Assembly: GCA_003565715.1 (NCBI GenBank)
Contig: PXAV01000084.1
Coordinates: forward strand, 1 to 32,708
Length of the DNA stretch: 32,708 nt
Source: Methanosarcinaceae archaeon
GTDB lineage: Archaea > Halobacteriota > Methanosarcinia > Methanosarcinales > Methanosarcinaceae
Direction of reading: 5' to 3'
Under the pieces are notes generated by a model. The model was not told the origin of the DNA, did no database searches, and worked only from the letters and a program-made list of their open reading frames with translations. The translations under genes and the position numbers were made by a program. This document shows positions 4,473 to 12,830 of this stretch, piece by piece (within the stretch, counting starts at the first letter, position 1; every line of letters starts with the position of its first letter).

Positions 4473-5501
4473 CTAATTTATCTCATAAATATGGAAGCCA
4501 CTTGAGCGAAGAATCCTTTTATCCTCAGTTATTATAAGGCATTCAACTCCAGGAAGCACTTCTATCATTTCCATACCATCCGTTTCCCCAAGTACAAAAA
4601 CAGCTGTTGAAAATGCATCCGCGTCCATAGCATTATTTGCTAGCACTGTAGCACTAATAAGGGTCTGTGAAGGATAACCGGTCCTTGGGTCTGCTATATG
4701 GGATATTCTTGCGCTTTCATTGAAATAACGCTCATAATTACCGCTTGTGGCAACTGCCATATCCCTGACATCCATCATTACCACATGATCACTGCTTTTC
4801 TCAGGGTCCTGCAGCCCTACAGTCCAGTAAGTACCGTCTGGTTTAATACCAAAATACCTGCCATCACCGCCGGCATTCACAAACCCGGAGTTTATACCAT
4901 CGGATACTAGAGACTCAACTGCTTTATCAACCGCATATCCCTTTGCTACACCTCCCAGGGTAAGACCCATTCCATCATCAAGTCTAATATCATTGCCTTG
5001 TATATCTATATAACTGTAATTTACAAGCATTAATGATTCATTGATCTCCTCTGTAGTAGGATCTGTATAAGGCCCTCCTGGACTGTATTTACTTGCCCAG
5101 AGATCGAGAAGGGGTTTTATGGAAATATCAAAGGCACCGCCACTTTGCTCATAATGATAGCCTGATCTTTGTATCACATAAACAAGTTCCGGGTCAGCAT
5201 CATATAAATCACCCTTGCTATTAAGCAGACTTATCTCACTATTCTCATCGTGTATATTCATCATATCATTTATATGATACATTTTCTCAAAAGCCCTGTC
5301 TATTGATTCGGACGCATCAGTCTCATTAGAACTTACCACAGATATTGTGACAATTGTATCCATAAGACTGCGTGTCTTGGAATGAAGGGTTTTTTCAGAA
5401 GATACATCATTATCTACATAGGCCAGGTAAGATGCAAAATGTACCAGTAACAACACTGCAAATATAACAAACAGTACAATGGCAACAGTTTTATACCTCA
5501 T
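4473..5501 (-). CDS. apbE: FAD:protein FMN transferase (ApbE)
   Basis: 342 residues. An N-terminal membrane anchor (about residues 5-28) places the catalytic domain outside the membrane, where ApbE modifies its targets. ApbE signatures are TLGGVAKGYAVDKA (181-194), NAGGDGR (209-215), the DPRTGYP segment (271-277) and the metal-binding DADAFSTA (293-300). The enzyme transfers FMN from FAD to a threonine in S/T-G-A-T-type motifs. RnfG, encoded divergently about 4.4 kb away, carries one (TGATVS), so it is the obvious substrate, with RnfD as second. No SD precedes the ATG, and an AT-rich ATTTAACATTAATT box about 25 bases upstream suggests a leaderless transcript. A short dyad overlaps the start codon. 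Confidence 0.93.
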   Translation of the reverse strand: MRYKTVAIVLFVIFAVLLLVHFASYLAYVDNDVSSEKTLHSKTRSLMDTIVTISVVSSNETDASESIDRAFEKMYHINDMMNIHDENSEISLLNSKGDLYDADPELVYVIQRSGYHYEQSGGAFDISIKPLLDLWASKYSPGGPYTDPTTEEINESLMLVNYSYIDIQGNDIRLDDGMGLTLGGVAKGYAVDKAVESLVSDGINSGFVNAGGDGRYFGIKPDGTYWTVGLQDPEKSSDHVVMMDVRDMAVATSGNYERYFNESARISHIADPRTGYPSQTLISATVLANNAMDADAFSTAVFVLGETDGMEMIEVLPGVECLIITEDKRILRSSGFHIYEIN

Positions 5502-5617: not shown

Positions 5618-6031
5618 ATGATTAATCCCAGCACAGGTACAGGGACAAGTTCAAGCAAAGACAAATATCTTATAGTCGCCCTTCATCAGTTAATGGAAGA
5701 ATACGGATGTAAAGGCATAGAGAAGCATTTTGGTTCCGTGAAGCATCATGTAATTTACACAAAACCGGATTCATCTCTTGACAAAATCGAACTAAAGGCC
5801 AATGTAAGCGGTCATCATATGGATGTGGACTTTTTAGGTTACACACCTGAAAAAAGTCTTCTTGATAAAGTCTTTGATTTTAATGTACGAGTAATACGCA
5901 AGTCTTTCGAGATAGATAAGTACGTTTCTAATGATCTGAAAATAATGAATGAACAAAATTTAAGGAACACCATCATTATTGTCATCAAGAATCTCGAAGA
6001 AGTGACGGAAAAGAACACTAAAGAGAGTTGA
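5618..6031 (+). CDS. Unknown protein, first gene of the Rnf operon
   Basis: 137 residues with no membrane segment, signal peptide or cysteine cluster; a single Cys sits near residue 31. The start is an alternative-free ATG with GGAG seven bases upstream. The N-terminal dozen residues are Ser/Thr/Gly-rich, followed by a predicted alpha/beta domain (LIVALHQLMEEYG, then HHVIYTKPDS and strands with GHHMDVDFLGY) and a long C-terminal helical part. I do not recognise the family. It ends two bases before the mmcA ATG, so it is almost certainly co-transcribed and translationally coupled with mmcA and the rnf genes. A regulatory or assembly role for Rnf/MmcA is possible, but only from position. Confidence 0.75.
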   Translation: MINPSTGTGTSSSKDKYLIVALHQLMEEYGCKGIEKHFGSVKHHVIYTKPDSSLDKIELKANVSGHHMDVDFLGYTPEKSLLDKVFDFNVRVIRKSFEIDKYVSNDLKIMNEQNLRNTIIIVIKNLEEVTEKNTKES

Positions 6032-6033
6032 GC

Positions 6034-7548
6034 ATGGCCAGAATGAATATTATACTTATAGGAATACTTGTTGTGATGTTCACAAGTGCAGCTGTATATG
6101 CCTATGTCGGGTACAGCGGCAATAGTGACCTGTCTGCTCATTATATGACAGAGCAGAAGTGGTCAGACAGCACCTGCGGAGGATGTCATATAGGAGTATA
6201 CAGTGATGTTGAACTATCATCACATGTAGAACAGGACCTGAAAAAATGGGCCCCTTTTATGGAATTTGGAGTCGACATTGATAGTCTCGATGATGAGACA
6301 AGAGTCATAACGTACGGGCAGGTCCATCCCGGTGGTGGTTACATGGCAGACCATGGAGTAAGCGTTGATTGTATGATATGCCATGATCAGGTAAGTGGAT
6401 ATGATTTCCAGGCCCGTTCTGAGAAGATAGCCACCGGTAATTTTGCAGACGCAAATGAGGCAGCAATAGAAGAGCAAAGAGAAAAATTACAACAGCATCC
6501 AATATATGTAGCAAGTTACGCACTGGACGTCCTAACTCCTCTGCCAGTAGTAATGGAAGTTCATGATCATATATTCGGTTCTCCTAAAAGGGAAATGTGC
6601 GGTACCAGCTGTCACGTAAATGATATAGCAACCACTGCAGTCACATGGGCTTCTGCAGATGAGGCAGCCTATGATGTGCATGCTTCCCTTAAGTGCCAGG
6701 ATTGTCACACAACTACTGACCACAATATAGGCGGAACTACGGTCCTGTCTTCTGAGGGGCATGTTATGACCCAGAGTGGTGTAAAAGACTGTGCTTCTTC
6801 TGGGTGCCACGAGGGGATATCCCACGGACCAATGGTCGATGCCCACCTAACATCCGTAAGCTGTGAAGCATGCCACATACCTGCATTACCAGGAAGTGAC
6901 ATAACAGGATATCCTGTAGTTGAGGAATTCAGCTGGGATAGTGGTGTAAGGGAAGACATAATACATGAGACAGAGTTCAAACCAACGATTGCATGGTCAA
7001 GAGGTACATACCAGGATATGCTTCCAACTGTACAGGAGCGTAAGGATGATTCTGTGCTAAAGCCATTTAACGTAATAACAGGAACATGGTGGGATAAGGG
7101 ATTAGATCCGCAGGTTGTTGCTGATCCGGACAATAGTTCTGCAATAGGCGACCCGATACCACCAGCGTACGTGTTAAAGGCTGACGCTGATGGAGATGGA
7201 GTAGTGACCAGGGAAGAGATGCGCGCACTTGACCTGAATATGGATGGCACTTCTGATTATCCAAATGCTGTACTTCGAAATGTGACAATGTATTATCAGG
7301 TCAGCCATAATGTAGCCAGCACCAGTACAGGCCTTGGTGAACCTCTTGAGTGTGCTGATTGTCATGGTTCAACTGCAACAGCAATTGACTGGGTAGCACT
7401 GGGATATGGAAAAGATCCTGCAGAGACTGACCCTCCAACAGATTTCACAACTATGAGAACGGATGTGACAAGGAAGGGTGAAAGACCAACTGAGGTCGAA
7501 AGGGAACCAGCATTTAGAGGAATATTGAGCAATATCCTCGGGAGGTGA
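6034..7548 (+). CDS. mmcA: Multiheme c-type cytochrome MmcA
   Basis: 504 residues with an N-terminal signal/anchor (about 5-25) and an extracytoplasmic body. Heme motifs are five CxxCH (Cys48, 113, 221, 277, 440), one CxxxCH (Cys189-His194) and one CxxxxCH (Cys253-His259), seven in all, the pattern reported for M. acetivorans MmcA. MmcA takes electrons from Rnf and passes them to methanophenazine or to extracellular acceptors (established for M. acetivorans). I chose ATG 6034 over the upstream TTG at 6028, because it follows the stop of the previous gene directly. Residues 384-395 form a canonical EF-hand loop (DADGDGVVTREE), followed by a second Asp/Asn-rich stretch from Asp400. The gene's stop overlaps the rnfC SD. 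Confidence 0.92.
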   Translation: MARMNIILIGILVVMFTSAAVYAYVGYSGNSDLSAHYMTEQKWSDSTCGGCHIGVYSDVELSSHVEQDLKKWAPFMEFGVDIDSLDDETRVITYGQVHPGGGYMADHGVSVDCMICHDQVSGYDFQARSEKIATGNFADANEAAIEEQREKLQQHPIYVASYALDVLTPLPVVMEVHDHIFGSPKREMCGTSCHVNDIATTAVTWASADEAAYDVHASLKCQDCHTTTDHNIGGTTVLSSEGHVMTQSGVKDCASSGCHEGISHGPMVDAHLTSVSCEACHIPALPGSDITGYPVVEEFSWDSGVREDIIHETEFKPTIAWSRGTYQDMLPTVQERKDDSVLKPFNVITGTWWDKGLDPQVVADPDNSSAIGDPIPPAYVLKADADGDGVVTREEMRALDLNMDGTSDYPNAVLRNVTMYYQVSHNVASTSTGLGEPLECADCHGSTATAIDWVALGYGKDPAETDPPTDFTTMRTDVTRKGERPTEVEREPAFRGILSNILGR

Positions 7549-7552
7549 AGAA

Positions 7553-8902
7553 ATGGAGATCAAAACATTGGATATATTACCTGAGAAGATGGTCATTCCG
7601 CTAAAGCAACATCATGGAGCTGTATGTGAACCGCTTGTAAAGAAAGGTGAAAGAGTACTTATAGGTCAGAAAATAGGTGATAGCAGAGAATATTTCGCAT
7701 CTGCGGTGCACTCCAGTGTGTGTGGAGAGGTAATCGCCGTTGAGAATTTTCCTCATCCTGGTGGAAATAAAGTATTGAGTGTTGTTATCAAGCCAGAAGA
7801 GTCTGATGAATGTGTCGATCTTAAACCTTTTAAAGACCTTTCATCTGAAGAGCTTGCCGATATGATAAAGGATTCGGGAATAGTCGAGCATCATGGAGCT
7901 CCAACTCACACTGTTTTAAGACCGGTGGGAAAACAAATTGACACCGTACTTATAAATTCCACATCATCTGAATGGATAGGTGGAAAATACAAGACCCCAG
8001 AAGAATATGCATACCAGATGATTGATGCCCTAAAGCTTCTTATGGAAACTGCCGGAGCATCAAAGGGTGCAATAGTCCTTCGTACAGATGATAAAGATTC
8101 TATAGAGGCCTTTGAAGGGATTGAAGTTGACAATAGGAAGCTATTGGTAGCCCCGCTTATAGGTGGACGTAAGATAGATTATTATTTCAAAGAGCAGGAA
8201 TCTGACATTGTAGTAGTGTCCCAGAAGCGCATATACGGAAAGAATATCCTTAACTTCTTTACATACAATGTAACAGGAAAAAGAGTGGGGCCGGGATGTA
8301 ACCCCACAGATGTGGGAGTTGCTGTCTGCGGAGTAAAGTCTGCAAAGGCCCTTTATGATGCAGCTCACGAAGGTAAGCCATATTTAGATACAGTAATATC
8401 CCTAGAAGGCTTTTCAAAGGACATGGACCATATCAAGGTAAAGATAGGTACCCTTTTCAAAGACATAATAGAAGGATATGGTTATAGTGGTGAGATAGGC
8501 AAGATAATTACCAATGGTGTCAGAACAGGAGTGGCACAGTATACTGATCAAGTACCTGTGACAAAAGGGACCACAAGGATAACTCTACAAAAACCTGAAG
8601 AAGTGATGAAAGAAGAGTTCATTGATTGTATACATTGTGCACGTTGTGTGGATGTATGTCCCGTGGAGGTCCTTCCAAGCAGGCTTGCAATAATGGCAGA
8701 TATGGGTAAATTTGACGAGTGCAGAAAACTGCATATCGAAAATTGCATAGAATGTGGAGACTGTTCGGCTGTATGTCCTTCTAAGATACATATACTCCAG
8801 CTTATAAGATATGCGAAGAATTCAATAGGTCTGGCCTATGGAGGAATATCTTTGGGATCATCTGAAAAATCAAATGGAAGCAGCACTAGCGGAGGTGAGT
8901 AG
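7553..8902 (+). CDS. rnfC: Rnf electron transport complex subunit RnfC
   Basis: 449 residues. The N-terminal region is the RnfC barrel-sandwich/SLBB type. The C-terminal region binds two 4Fe-4S clusters through Cys359-x2-362-x2-365-x3-369 (CIHCARCVDVCP) and Cys398-x2-401-x2-404-x3-408 (CIECGDCSAVCP). It is shorter than many bacterial RnfC, as expected for the archaeal form. The G-rich nucleotide-binding loop of NADH-oxidising bacterial homologues is not evident near residues 60-130, which fits a ferredoxin-to-cytochrome complex rather than an NADH one (inference). It lies on the cytoplasmic face. A strong SD, GGAGGTGA (7541-7548), lies within the end of mmcA. Confidence 0.92.
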   Translation: MEIKTLDILPEKMVIPLKQHHGAVCEPLVKKGERVLIGQKIGDSREYFASAVHSSVCGEVIAVENFPHPGGNKVLSVVIKPEESDECVDLKPFKDLSSEELADMIKDSGIVEHHGAPTHTVLRPVGKQIDTVLINSTSSEWIGGKYKTPEEYAYQMIDALKLLMETAGASKGAIVLRTDDKDSIEAFEGIEVDNRKLLVAPLIGGRKIDYYFKEQESDIVVVSQKRIYGKNILNFFTYNVTGKRVGPGCNPTDVGVAVCGVKSAKALYDAAHEGKPYLDTVISLEGFSKDMDHIKVKIGTLFKDIIEGYGYSGEIGKIITNGVRTGVAQYTDQVPVTKGTTRITLQKPEEVMKEEFIDCIHCARCVDVCPVEVLPSRLAIMADMGKFDECRKLHIENCIECGDCSAVCPSKIHILQLIRYAKNSIGLAYGGISLGSSEKSNGSSTSGGE

Positions 8903-8903
8903 T

Positions 8904-9914
8904 ATGACATACATCATCTCAGCTCCACCTCACAAAAAAACAAGTACTTATTTTAGAACTTTGAACCTGAGCAAAATAATAGCTTTGATCCCCATATGTC
9001 TTGTAGCTATCTACTTCTTTGGCGTTCCAGCAGTTCAGATAATACTAGCAAGTGTTCTTGCTGCTGTCCTTACAGAACTGGCCATACAGAAAGCTTTCAA
9101 ACATAAGGTGACCATAAAAGATGGTCATGCGGTTTTGGTAGGTCTGATGCTTGCATTGCTGATACCTCCGGAAGCCCCTGTATGGATACCTGTCTTTGGT
9201 GGTTTCTTTGCCATAGCTTTTGGAAAATTTGTGTTTGGTGGGGTCGGTTCCTATATATTCAGCCCTGTTCTTGTATCATGGATATTCATGAGGAGTGCAT
9301 GGTCCAACCATATGACACCCTTATCGATCCCTAATGTAGGTCAGTTATCTGATTTTATGCTTGAGAATGGTGCAGGCCTGCTGATAGATGTTTCTCCAAT
9401 TGCACTGATCGGAGGTTTGTACCTTATATATAGAAAATATATAGACTGGAGAATACCGCTTGCATTCTTTGCAACAATGATCCTTATCCCTCAAACACTA
9501 TTGTTCCTTGCCGGGGTTTTTGATCTTATACAGCACGGAGTGCTCAACCCTCTGATGTACCTCTCACAGTTATTTGCTTTCCTTAGCATCAGCCCTGAGC
9601 TGCCCTATGCAATGGTAGGTATACTCTTCTTTGGCATTATATTCCTTGCAACTGACACACCAACAACACCGGTTACAAAGACAGGACGCCTTATATATGG
9701 AGTCCTTTGCGGAGTCCTTGTATTCATATACGGATACTTTGGTAACTATGTTGACGGAACACTGTATGGTATATTCCTTGCAAGCTGTGCTGCGTCCTTC
9801 ATTGAAATGAATACACGACCCGCTCCTTATGGCAAGGATTCACTGCCCGAAAAGGTCTATAAGCGTATAATGGAAAAGATACCTGAACCCCTAAGGTTTG
9901 AGGTGATCAAATGA
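8904..9914 (+). CDS. rnfD: Rnf complex membrane subunit RnfD
   Basis: 336 residues with about nine or ten membrane segments. Near residue 250 the sequence ATDTPTTPVTKTG corresponds to the family's ATDPVTSP.T..G segment, where bacterial RnfD carries a covalently bound FMN on a threonine (family knowledge). Charged loops such as FKHKVTIKDGHAVLVG also match the family. The start is the ATG at 8904 with GGAGGTGA at 8891-8898, not the in-frame GTG/ATG candidates further upstream, which lie inside rnfC. Its last codon overlaps the rnfG start (ATGA). The subunit forms part of the sodium-translocating membrane core. Confidence 0.92.
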   Translation: MTYIISAPPHKKTSTYFRTLNLSKIIALIPICLVAIYFFGVPAVQIILASVLAAVLTELAIQKAFKHKVTIKDGHAVLVGLMLALLIPPEAPVWIPVFGGFFAIAFGKFVFGGVGSYIFSPVLVSWIFMRSAWSNHMTPLSIPNVGQLSDFMLENGAGLLIDVSPIALIGGLYLIYRKYIDWRIPLAFFATMILIPQTLLFLAGVFDLIQHGVLNPLMYLSQLFAFLSISPELPYAMVGILFFGIIFLATDTPTTPVTKTGRLIYGVLCGVLVFIYGYFGNYVDGTLYGIFLASCAASFIEMNTRPAPYGKDSLPEKVYKRIMEKIPEPLRFEVIK

Positions 9915-10486
9915 GTGTGTCAAATAAAGAAACAATGATAATCATCGGCAAACTTATAGTTGTGGCTGTTGTCGCTGCACTGCTGCTGGGCATTACTTAC
10001 GTCCCCACATCTGCACAAATAAAGCTCAATGAGGAATTAGCCAAGCAGGAAGTATTGAGGGATATATTCCCCCAGGATGATATCACCTTTGAAGCTGTAG
10101 AAGGGGATGCAGTTGATGAAGAGGGTGAACGTGAAATCCTTTACTATCGCGTAAAGGACGAAACTGGAAACATAGTAGGTTATGCGTTCTTCCAGCGGCA
10201 GCCTGGATATGAAGGAACTATGCTGGTAGCTGGTGGCGTTGATTCCACATTCTCAAATGTTAAGGGTATGGATGTAGTGAGCCATCAGGAAACACCAGGT
10301 CTGGGTTCGCTGATCACTGAGCCACGTTTCAGAGACCAGTTCTTTGGTCTACCTGTGAATTCACTTGACCTTAAAGCCGATGGTGGAGATGTTGATGCGA
10401 TCACAGGTGCAACCGTGTCCTCAAGGGCTGTTGTAGATGCTCTCAACGTCAAGATAAATGAGATCAAACAGAAAGAGGGGCAGTGA
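9911..10486 (+). CDS. rnfG: Rnf complex flavin subunit RnfG
   Basis: 191 residues with one N-terminal membrane helix (about 10-30) and an outward-facing FMN-binding domain. The flavinylation motif is DAITGATVSS; Thr168 (the last residue of TGAT) is the expected covalent FMN site, filled by ApbE. HQETPGLGS (125-133) is also conserved in RnfG/NqrC. RnfG on the outer face is the likely hand-over point to MmcA. The start overlaps the rnfD stop by four bases. Confidence 0.93.
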   Translation: MSVSNKETMIIIGKLIVVAVVAALLLGITYVPTSAQIKLNEELAKQEVLRDIFPQDDITFEAVEGDAVDEEGEREILYYRVKDETGNIVGYAFFQRQPGYEGTMLVAGGVDSTFSNVKGMDVVSHQETPGLGSLITEPRFRDQFFGLPVNSLDLKADGGDVDAITGATVSSRAVVDALNVKINEIKQKEGQ

Positions 10487-10491
10487 TATAA

Positions 10492-11106
10492 ATGGACCCA
10501 TTAAGTGAATATATGCGTGGTATAACAAGAGAGAACCCTATCTTTGCACTTGCCCTGGGACTCTGTCCGGCGCTGGCAGTGACCACCTCACTAGAAAATG
10601 CAATAGGAATGTCTGCAGCAACTGCATTTGTACTGATCTGTTCAAATGTGATCGTCTCATCCCTGAGAAAGCAGATACCTGCAACTGTAAGGCTTCCAAT
10701 GTTCATCATTATAATAGCCACATTTGTAACAATCGTTAACATGGTAATGCAGGCATACTTCCCCCCCATGCATGCAGCACTGGGTGTTTTCATTCCGCTA
10801 ATCGTCGTCAACTGTATGATAATAGGCCGTGCGGAGGCTTATGCCAATAGGAACAATGTGCCCTATTCACTAATAGATGCACTTGGTATCGCTACAGGTT
10901 TCCTGATAGCCTTATCAATGATCGGAGGCGTAAGGGAGCTATTTGGTACAGGACAGATAGTGACATTTGGTTATACATTGATTACTATGCCTGTGGACCC
11001 TTCAATAACAACAATGATATTGCCACCAGGAGCTTTCCTGACAATTGGCATCCTAATGGCTATAGTTAATTACCAGAAGGAAAGGAAGAGGGCGAGAGGT
11101 GGTTGA
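10492..11106 (+). CDS. rnfE: Rnf complex membrane subunit RnfE
   Basis: 204 residues with six membrane segments in the RnfA/RnfE (NqrD/NqrE) fold. The duplicated half-site motifs LGLCPALAVTTS (Cys25) and PLIVVNC (Cys108) hold the cysteines that, together with those of RnfA, bind an intramembrane 2Fe-2S cluster in structurally studied Rnf/NQR complexes. FGTGQIV and the FLTIGILMA tail are also family-typical. GAGGGG about ten bases upstream is the likely SD. The pair RnfA/RnfE is inverted in the membrane. Confidence 0.92.
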   Translation: MDPLSEYMRGITRENPIFALALGLCPALAVTTSLENAIGMSAATAFVLICSNVIVSSLRKQIPATVRLPMFIIIIATFVTIVNMVMQAYFPPMHAALGVFIPLIVVNCMIIGRAEAYANRNNVPYSLIDALGIATGFLIALSMIGGVRELFGTGQIVTFGYTLITMPVDPSITTMILPPGAFLTIGILMAIVNYQKERKRARGG

Positions 11107-11108
11107 AC

Positions 11109-11696
11109 ATGGTTGAAAAAGAATTGTTTTCTATCTTCATGGATGGTGTATTCATAAAGAACTTCATAGTCATCCAGTTCCTGGGACTTTGTCCGTTCAT
11201 AGGCGTAACAAAAGATGTAAAGAGTGCAGCAGGAATATCTGCAGCTGTTATATTTGTTATGACAATGGCATCGATGGCAACTTATGCAATATACACATAT
11301 GTACTGATACCCGCAGAAATGGAATTCCTGAATGTTATAACATTTATTGTTGTTATAGCATCACTTGTGCAGCTTGTCGAATTTATAGTCAGGAAGAAGC
11401 TTCCTGCACTTTATCGGTCGCTTGGTATATTCCTCCCACTGATCACAACCAACTGTGCTGTACTGGGTGTAGTACTTCTTAGCAGAAACTCAGCCTATGA
11501 CTTCACACAGTCAGTTGTTTTTGGAATTGCAGCAGGCATCGGATTTATGATAATAATGCTGCTTATGTCTGCTATGAGAGAAAAAACAGACTTTATGAGA
11601 GTGCCTTCATCTATCAGAGGACTTCCAATGGCTTTCTTTTTGGCAACGATGCTCTCTCTTGCCTTTGTTAACTACTTCTGGGTGATTCCAATATGA
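11109..11696 (+). CDS. rnfA: Rnf complex membrane subunit RnfA
   Basis: 195 residues and six membrane segments, homologous to RnfE with inverted topology. Cys28 in LGLCPFIGVTKDV and Cys116 in PLITTNCAVLG supply this subunit's half of the intramembrane 2Fe-2S site (family knowledge). I prefer ATG 11109 over the TTG at 11103, because GAGAGGTGG (11094-11102) is then six bases away. The RnfE stop lies just before it. The end overlaps the rnfB start (ATGA). Confidence 0.92.
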   Translation: MVEKELFSIFMDGVFIKNFIVIQFLGLCPFIGVTKDVKSAAGISAAVIFVMTMASMATYAIYTYVLIPAEMEFLNVITFIVVIASLVQLVEFIVRKKLPALYRSLGIFLPLITTNCAVLGVVLLSRNSAYDFTQSVVFGIAAGIGFMIIMLLMSAMREKTDFMRVPSSIRGLPMAFFLATMLSLAFVNYFWVIPI

Positions 11697-12493
11697 GCGA
11701 GTACAGTACTATATTGATACAGGCTGTAGCGATCCTGGGAGGTCTGGGATTGGCCGTTGGTATTATGCTTGTTGTAGCGTCAAAGAAGTTCAAGGTGGAA
11801 ACTGATCCCCTTGTTGAAGAGATAATAGATATACTGCCAGGAGCAAACTGTGGTGCATGCGGCTACGCAGGATGCGCCACGTTTGCAGAGAGTGTGGTCA
11901 GTGAGGATGCTCCTATCGATGGTTGTCCTGTTGGAGGCTTCGAACTTGCAAAAAACATAGGAAGCAAACTTGGACAGGAGGTCTCAGAGGATGAGAAAGA
12001 GTATCCATTCATACTTTGCAATGGTGGCGTGAACTGTGTTGACCGCTTTGATTATGTAGGTTTTGAGGATTGCAAGGCCGTAATGATGCTTTCTGATGGA
12101 GAAAAAGGATGTAACTACGGGTGCATGGGCAGAGGTACTTGTGTACGTGCCTGTCCTTTCGACGCATTGGTAATTGGAGAGGACAAACTTCCTTATGTTA
12201 ACAAGAACCTATGTACCAGTTGTGGCCTGTGCATAACCTCATGTCCCAATGACATCATTGTATTTGCAAAGGAATCAGAGAGAGTACATGTACTTTGTAT
12301 GTCCCATGATAAAGGAAAAGCTGTAAAGGAAGCATGTACTGTTGGTTGTATCGGATGCAAGATATGTGCAAAGAACTGTCCGGAGGATGCCATAACAGTA
12401 ACCAGTTTCCTTGCAGACATTGACCAGCAGAAATGTACATCCTGTGGAATATGCGTTGAAAAATGCCCACAGAACACAATTGCCATCAGGTGA
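11693..12493 (+). CDS. rnfB: Rnf complex ferredoxin-like subunit RnfB
   Basis: 266 residues. One N-terminal membrane helix (about 8-29) is followed by a soluble cytoplasmic domain rich in clusters. Cys53, 56, 61 and 78 (NCGACGYAGC...GCP) form the Fe-S domain shared with related proteins. Further groups are Cys140/144/150/154, Cys174/177/180/184, Cys219/222/225/229 and Cys248/251/254/258, plus extra cysteines at 109, 115, 127 and 215, so five or six 4Fe-4S clusters are possible; six is the number described for the M. acetivorans protein. RnfB receives electrons from reduced ferredoxin and is the entry point of the complex. Confidence 0.93.
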   Translation: MSEYSTILIQAVAILGGLGLAVGIMLVVASKKFKVETDPLVEEIIDILPGANCGACGYAGCATFAESVVSEDAPIDGCPVGGFELAKNIGSKLGQEVSEDEKEYPFILCNGGVNCVDRFDYVGFEDCKAVMMLSDGEKGCNYGCMGRGTCVRACPFDALVIGEDKLPYVNKNLCTSCGLCITSCPNDIIVFAKESERVHVLCMSHDKGKAVKEACTVGCIGCKICAKNCPEDAITVTSFLADIDQQKCTSCGICVEKCPQNTIAIR

Positions 12494-12497
12494 TCAT

Positions 12498-12830
12498 ATG
12501 ACATATAAAACAAAACTGGGCCTTAATGAGAATATTGTGGCAGCTTTAAGCTATATAGGTTTCTGGATAACAGGAATAATCATTCTGTTGATTGAGCCGC
12601 AGAACAAGTTTGTGAGATTCCATGCAATGCAGTCGCTACTGATATTCCTTCCTTTTTCACTACTGGTCTTTGCAGTTGCATGGATACCCTATGTTGGCTG
12701 GATACTTGCTGACTTCATAGGTTTCTTTGCACTTTTTTTGGTGCCTGTATTTGCTTTTATAGCATACAGAGGTATCCTTCTTAAGATACCAGTACTTGGA
12801 ACCTACGCTTACAGGATAATATATCAATGA
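12498..12830 (+). CDS. Small membrane protein at the end of the Rnf operon (DUF4870-like)
   Basis: 110 residues with three or four membrane helices and the FVRFHAMQSLLIFL motif characteristic of the DUF4870/Tic20-like small membrane proteins. M. acetivorans has a comparable small membrane protein at the same place after rnfB, and the gene is co-transcribed there. The role is unknown. The start is ATG 12498 with GGTGAT at 12489-12494; longer in-frame alternatives lie inside rnfB. A terminator hairpin follows five bases after the stop, so this is the last gene of the operon. Confidence 0.88.
   Translation: MTYKTKLGLNENIVAALSYIGFWITGIIILLIEPQNKFVRFHAMQSLLIFLPFSLLVFAVAWIPYVGWILADFIGFFALFLVPVFAFIAYRGILLKIPVLGTYAYRIIYQ

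Follow-up and report, generated by a model that had tools for sequence, protein, structure and literature searches.

Among the multiheme cytochromes of methanogens, MmcA has received much study; it carries internal as well as extracellular electron transfer. In the window (the whole stretch of 32,708 nucleotides that was analysed, contig PXAV01000084.1 of a Methanosarcinaceae archaeon), the mmcA gene heads an Rnf operon, the rnfC open reading frame (ORF) starting 4 bases past the mmcA stop (Table 1). A TTG is also in frame, 6 bases upstream of the mmcA ATG. The product scores 661.4 bits against the NCBIfam model TIGR04314 (methano7heme, cut-off 250), which places it in this family. Its seven CX2-4CH heme motifs are CGTSCH (189), CASSGCH (253) and five CXXCH, in agreement with the composition described for MmcA, including one CXXXCH and one CXXXXCH (PMC11024163). 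The M. acetivorans MmcA (MA0658, TIGR04314) resembles the window protein in score, heme motifs, operon position and the loop pair described below, which it has at the same place, and we found no essential difference between the two. The Rnf genes were recognized by Pfam matches (RnfC_N, FMN_bind, Rnf-Nqr twice and FeS/Fer4) and by ORF order, rnfD being assigned from its position between rnfC and rnfG, a place kept in relatives. The location of mmcA within the Rnf operon has been reported (PMC11024163) and was also found in the cases checked here.

Table 1. Features of the mmcA locus and of the loop module (window positions; residues are those of MmcA)
Feature	Positions	Strand	Description
ApbE flavin transferase gene	4473..5501	-	upstream of mmcA, opposite strand
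137-aa ORF	5618..6031	+	directly upstream of mmcA
mmcA	6034..7548	+	seven-heme c-type cytochrome, 504 aa, ATG start
Heme 6 motif CEACH	6862..6876	+	residues 277-281, from translation
Beta strand before module	7054..7095	+	residues 341-354; DSSP; aligns with OTR IYPFKVHTGKQ
Entering helix of loop 1	7162..7182	+	residues 377-383; DSSP on AlphaFold2 full-length and fragment models
Loop pair	7183..7266	+	residues 384-411, translation DADGDGVVTREEMRALDLNMDGTSDYPN
Calcium-type loop 1	7183..7218	+	DADGDGVVTREE, residues 384-395, canonical 12-residue EF-hand loop
Exit helix of loop 1, leading into loop 2	7210..7227	+	residues 393-398; DSSP, AlphaFold2 models
Calcium-type loop 2	7231..7266	+	DLNMDGTSDYPN, residues 400-411, EF-like/DxDxDGxxD-type, no Glu at position 12
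Beta strand after module	7270..7299	+	residues 413-422; DSSP; aligns with 1SP3 TEMWWRINH; leads to H425
H425	7306..7308	+	invariant in MmcA and the two OTR rows of the alignment; probable distal heme ligand
Heme 7 motif CADCH	7351..7365	+	residues 440-444, from translation
C-terminal insert point	about 7366-7390		site of the eighth heme motif in other MmcA
rnfC, rnfD, rnfG, two Rnf-Nqr membrane subunits, rnfB	7553..12493	+	directly 3' of mmcA
139-aa ORF	12411..12830	+	overlaps rnfB end

Three further ORFs border this gene group. The 137-aa ORF gave no Pfam or NCBIfam match; in each of the 39 loci whose flank was examined, it is present upstream of mmcA, at an identity of 47-82%. Its product is a possible unrecognized partner in the Rnf operon. 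The 139-aa ORF has only a weak match to DUF4870 (E 0.04) and is possibly a small last gene of the operon. The presence of an ApbE gene near the Rnf operon fits flavinylation of Rnf subunits.

The two calcium-type loops lie between hemes 6 and 7, where the preliminary description had placed them. That description had read residues 384-395 as a canonical EF-hand loop of 12 residues, a reading that our searches support. Together with the next residue (M), loop 1 satisfies the full PROSITE EF-hand pattern PS00018, and it is the sole match to this pattern in all six frames of the window; among composition-preserving shuffles of MmcA, 0.5% contained a match. When the whole 2.06-Mb genome was searched in six frames with Pfam EF-hand_5, MmcA ranked first (20.8 bits, E 9e-4), and this protein gave another, weak match at loop 2 (9.4 bits). 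Taken together, the two loops reach 28.1 bits, above the Pfam cut-off, and no other place in the genome lies above it. In an hmmscan of MmcA alone, the EF-hand model gave 19.9 bits vs a curated cut-off of 25.9; with models this short, single hands often stay below the cut-off. Since it is the best such site of the whole genome, the match in MmcA is not a chance one. Loop 2 is present at residue 400 as described, and it is longer than the DLNMDGTSD then given, its conserved unit having 12 positions (D-x-[DN]-x-D-G-x-[PA]-D-Y-P-[ND]). Position 7 of an EF-hand loop ligates via the backbone, and the sequence gives no judgement on it. Dockerins were considered as another source of such loops, and no Pfam dockerin match was found in MmcA at E<=1.

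About 100 homologues were gathered and aligned, and the loops were counted in 89 distinct MmcA, a loop being scored as intact by stated ligand rules. The possibility that loop 1 is unconserved, raised in the preliminary description, does not apply, as it is intact in 84 of the 89 proteins. Loop 2 is intact in 81, a few of its 'losses' being single substitutions (L059, L080). Both loops are found in 76 proteins, loop 1 only in eight and loop 2 only in five. It had also been asked whether the pair occurs in the well-studied M. acetivorans protein. It does: L041, which we take to be the MmcA of M. acetivorans strain C2A, reads DANGDGEVTVEEMQAYDADGDGEADYPN. The ligand columns of both loops have a mean entropy of 0.73 bits vs 2.42 bits in the intervening columns (nine columns of each kind, 49 representatives; exact rank test, p 8e-5). 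Conservation is confined to the ligand positions, where substitutions are almost all among D, N and S, to Gly6, to hydrophobic position 8 and to Glu12, and the intervening positions vary freely. Both PS00018 and this column conservation thus find in loop 1 the ligand positions, Gly6 and hydrophobic position 8 of an EF-hand loop. At fixed loop positions, synonymous codons replace one another for Asp, Glu and Val, which indicates that the residues are held at the protein level.

These data bear on whether the Asp-rich stretch could be a relic, or an acidic surface loop of the halophile type, that binds no metal. Many of the genera are marine or halophilic, with Asp common in their surface proteins, and single loops do decay. 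However, the selective retention of the ligand positions, Gly6, position 8 and Glu12 makes this reading highly improbable, as does the fact that Methanosarcina shows the pattern just as well preserved and that none of the 89 proteins is without both loops. Halophile acidity alone fails to explain conservation restricted to the ligands.

Losses were placed on a maximum-likelihood tree from which the loop columns had been left out. It shows one loss of loop 1, in a branch of a second family of the order (f2, probably an ANME-2 group), and three losses of loop 2. Each loop has thus been singly lost in some lineages, and neither is strictly essential. The mmcA genes tested in the loop-variant lineages still lie directly before rnfC and rnfD, which excludes a confusion with paralogues. 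We also rejected the idea that the pair was inserted recently, or solely in the lineage of this genome, as it occurs across the aligned genera with MmcA. In a separate variation, the number of heme motifs rises to nine in part of the f2 MmcA, the additional CXXCH lying near residues 98, 122 and 150 (L082, L085, L086, L090-L093 and L095).

By profile comparison, the octaheme tetrathionate reductases (OTR) are the nearest relatives of MmcA (MmcA profile against 1SP3, E 4e-54). The window protein itself does not belong to OTR, since it has seven motifs and reaches 63 bits against TIGR04315, whose cut-off is 375. In OTR (TIGR04315, PDB 1SP3), the two flanking strands, the following His and the last CXXCH align with those of MmcA. 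Unlike MmcA, OTR has eight hemes, the second of which is absent from MmcA, and no calcium loops. Both loops are missing from Shewanella 1SP3 and from the OTR and OTR-like loci of related archaea examined, in which other sequence joins the two strands; in OTR (TIGR04315, 1SP3) a segment FDWN...YSGEY stands there. The loop pair therefore marks the MmcA clade. The term 'insert', used in the preliminary description, holds relative to the OTR relatives; within MmcA, the pair belongs to the family, and TIGR04314 covers it.

An AlphaFold2 model of MmcA, computed without hemes or metal, has a mean pLDDT of 72.9, and residues 381-420 (90-95) are its best part. The order of elements in this model is helix 377-383, loop, helix 393-398, loop and strand 413-422, so that loop 1 is predicted to have a helix on either side. 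A 90-residue fragment (residues 338-427, a stretch free of heme motifs) folded alone gave the same elements, with a pLDDT of 92-96 over its residues 11-80. Foldseek searches with the full-length model returned OTR 1SP3 as the only significant match. With the fragment, four structures were found at E<=10, all of them EF-hand calcium proteins; their E-values (2-10) are not significant alone. Two of these, one of them a strontium complex, superpose on the fragment at an rmsd of 1.5-1.7 A over 22-23 residues, values that were obtained with EhCaBP1. Because of these E-values and since Foldseek scores both shape and sequence, this result is consistent with a formed ion site and is no proof of one. 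By sequence, the fragment profile finds EhCaBP1 with an E-value of about 2e-8; calmodulins and other calcium-binding proteins make up the rest of the matches listed. The structure prediction proposed earlier thus yields, without metal, a confident helix-loop-helix that superposes on solved EF-hands.

With its canonical loop and predicted helices on both sides, loop 1 resembles the EF-hand proteins EhCaBP1 and calmodulin (PF13202/PF00036). The pair as a whole differs from a classical EF-hand pair in that the two loop starts are 16 residues apart, the distance in calmodulin being about 36 residues. Moreover, loop 2 is unlike an EF-hand in that it has no Glu12 and is followed by a strand where a hand would have a helix. 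Calcium is also known in or beside other multiheme electron-transfer proteins, namely the nitrite reductase NrfA and MtrB in MtrCAB, where it is proposed to order the heme surroundings. These sites belong to other folds and are not known to be EF-hand loops, and in NrfA the ion is near the active-site heme.

Calcium binding and EF-hands are absent from the main texts of the MmcA papers PMC11024163, PMC9084895, PMC6703419 and PMC8546582, the last of which names CaCl2 solely as a medium component. In the review PMC12369344, the word 'calcium' occurs once, in a reference title, and a search of the open literature, covering a few spellings, returned no multiheme cytochromes with EF-hands. The loop pair is thus a family property of MmcA that is undescribed in the main texts of the MmcA papers cited. 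A conserved predicted metal-binding module would affect the purification, crystallization and measurement of MmcA; it would be cheap to test on already purified protein, and it marks the split between MmcA and OTR.

The sequence, its conservation, its confinement to the MmcA clade and the predicted fold are results of the analysis; calcium binding, a structural role and any effect on the hemes are what we infer from them. We consider it likely that the two loops bind Ca2+ constitutively, as a structural staple between two beta strands. The exit helix (393-398) of the canonical EF-hand, which begins with helix 377-383 and loop 384-395, would feed directly into loop 2 (400-411), the module lying between two strands whose sequence the OTR relatives also have. 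One Ca2+ would be permanently held in each loop, and the ions would fix the loop and the strand leading to the invariant H425, and thereby the packing of the last hemes. Constitutive binding is suggested because MmcA faces a millimolar-calcium exterior and because loop 1 has the calcium-selecting Glu12; at such external concentrations, a permanently loaded structural site would be likelier than a switch. As an example of external calcium, a published cell-suspension buffer contains 2 mM CaCl2. That calcium can order a chain of hemes has a precedent, at a different site, in simulations of MtrCAB (PMC12076491). The purification and voltammetry buffers of PMC11024163, as quoted, name no added calcium, and MmcA was still redox active; no mention of EDTA was found in that paper. 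Both a tightly bound and a dispensable ion are possible on these grounds.

The identity of the ion has to be considered as well, as EF-hands can take other ions and the loops might hold Mg2+, Mn2+, Fe2+/3+ or a lanthanide in the cell. MmcA passes electrons to soluble Fe(III) (PMC11024163), and the missing Glu12 of loop 2 could also speak for another cation. However, this is decidedly unlikely, since Glu is present at position 12 of loop 1 in 47 of the 49 representatives, the usual feature that favours calcium over magnesium. Loops of the lanmodulin type, which typically carry Pro at position 2, were rejected, as Pro never occupies that position in the MmcA loops.

A regulatory or adhesive function, by which calcium would tune electron transfer or bridge MmcA to an Rnf subunit, the S-layer, another MmcA or an extracellular acceptor, is compatible with the presence of the module in MmcA and its absence from OTR, and with the Rnf operon setting noted above (PMC11024163). 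It would also agree with the shortening of heme-heme distances by porin-bound calcium in the MtrCAB simulations (PMC12076491) and with the S-layer as the anchor of MmcA suggested in the review PMC12369344. We nevertheless regard it as unlikely, because calcium outside the cell stays at a steady millimolar level, which better suits a structural site, and because one-loop lineages still have the operon; moreover, no link was found between the loops and any partner. Beyond the structural staple that we prefer, it seems rather improbable that Ca2+ at the module makes electron flow respond to ionic conditions, either by setting the potential or geometry of the last hemes or through partner docking. 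If it did, the extracellular electron transfer of methanogens and their methane-oxidizing relatives would be calcium-dependent, and one-loop lineages would differ.

Finally, we noted variation in heme number at the C-terminal end of MmcA. An eighth heme motif (CXXCH) lies in a short C-terminal insert in 30 of 87 MmcA (including L008-L016, L026, L040, L061, L067, L070-L081, L083, L096 and others). Its distribution is patchy, the motif having been gained or lost about ten times on the tree. All 17 genomes of the set with a full-scoring OTR have an MmcA with the eighth motif, vs none with OTR among the 57 genomes whose MmcA has no such motif. In independent pairs, the eighth heme and OTR agree by 5-6 to 0 (p about 0.03-0.06), which makes the link suggestive after correction for kinship. 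The extra C-terminal heme may therefore serve electron transfer to OTR, as a docking heme.
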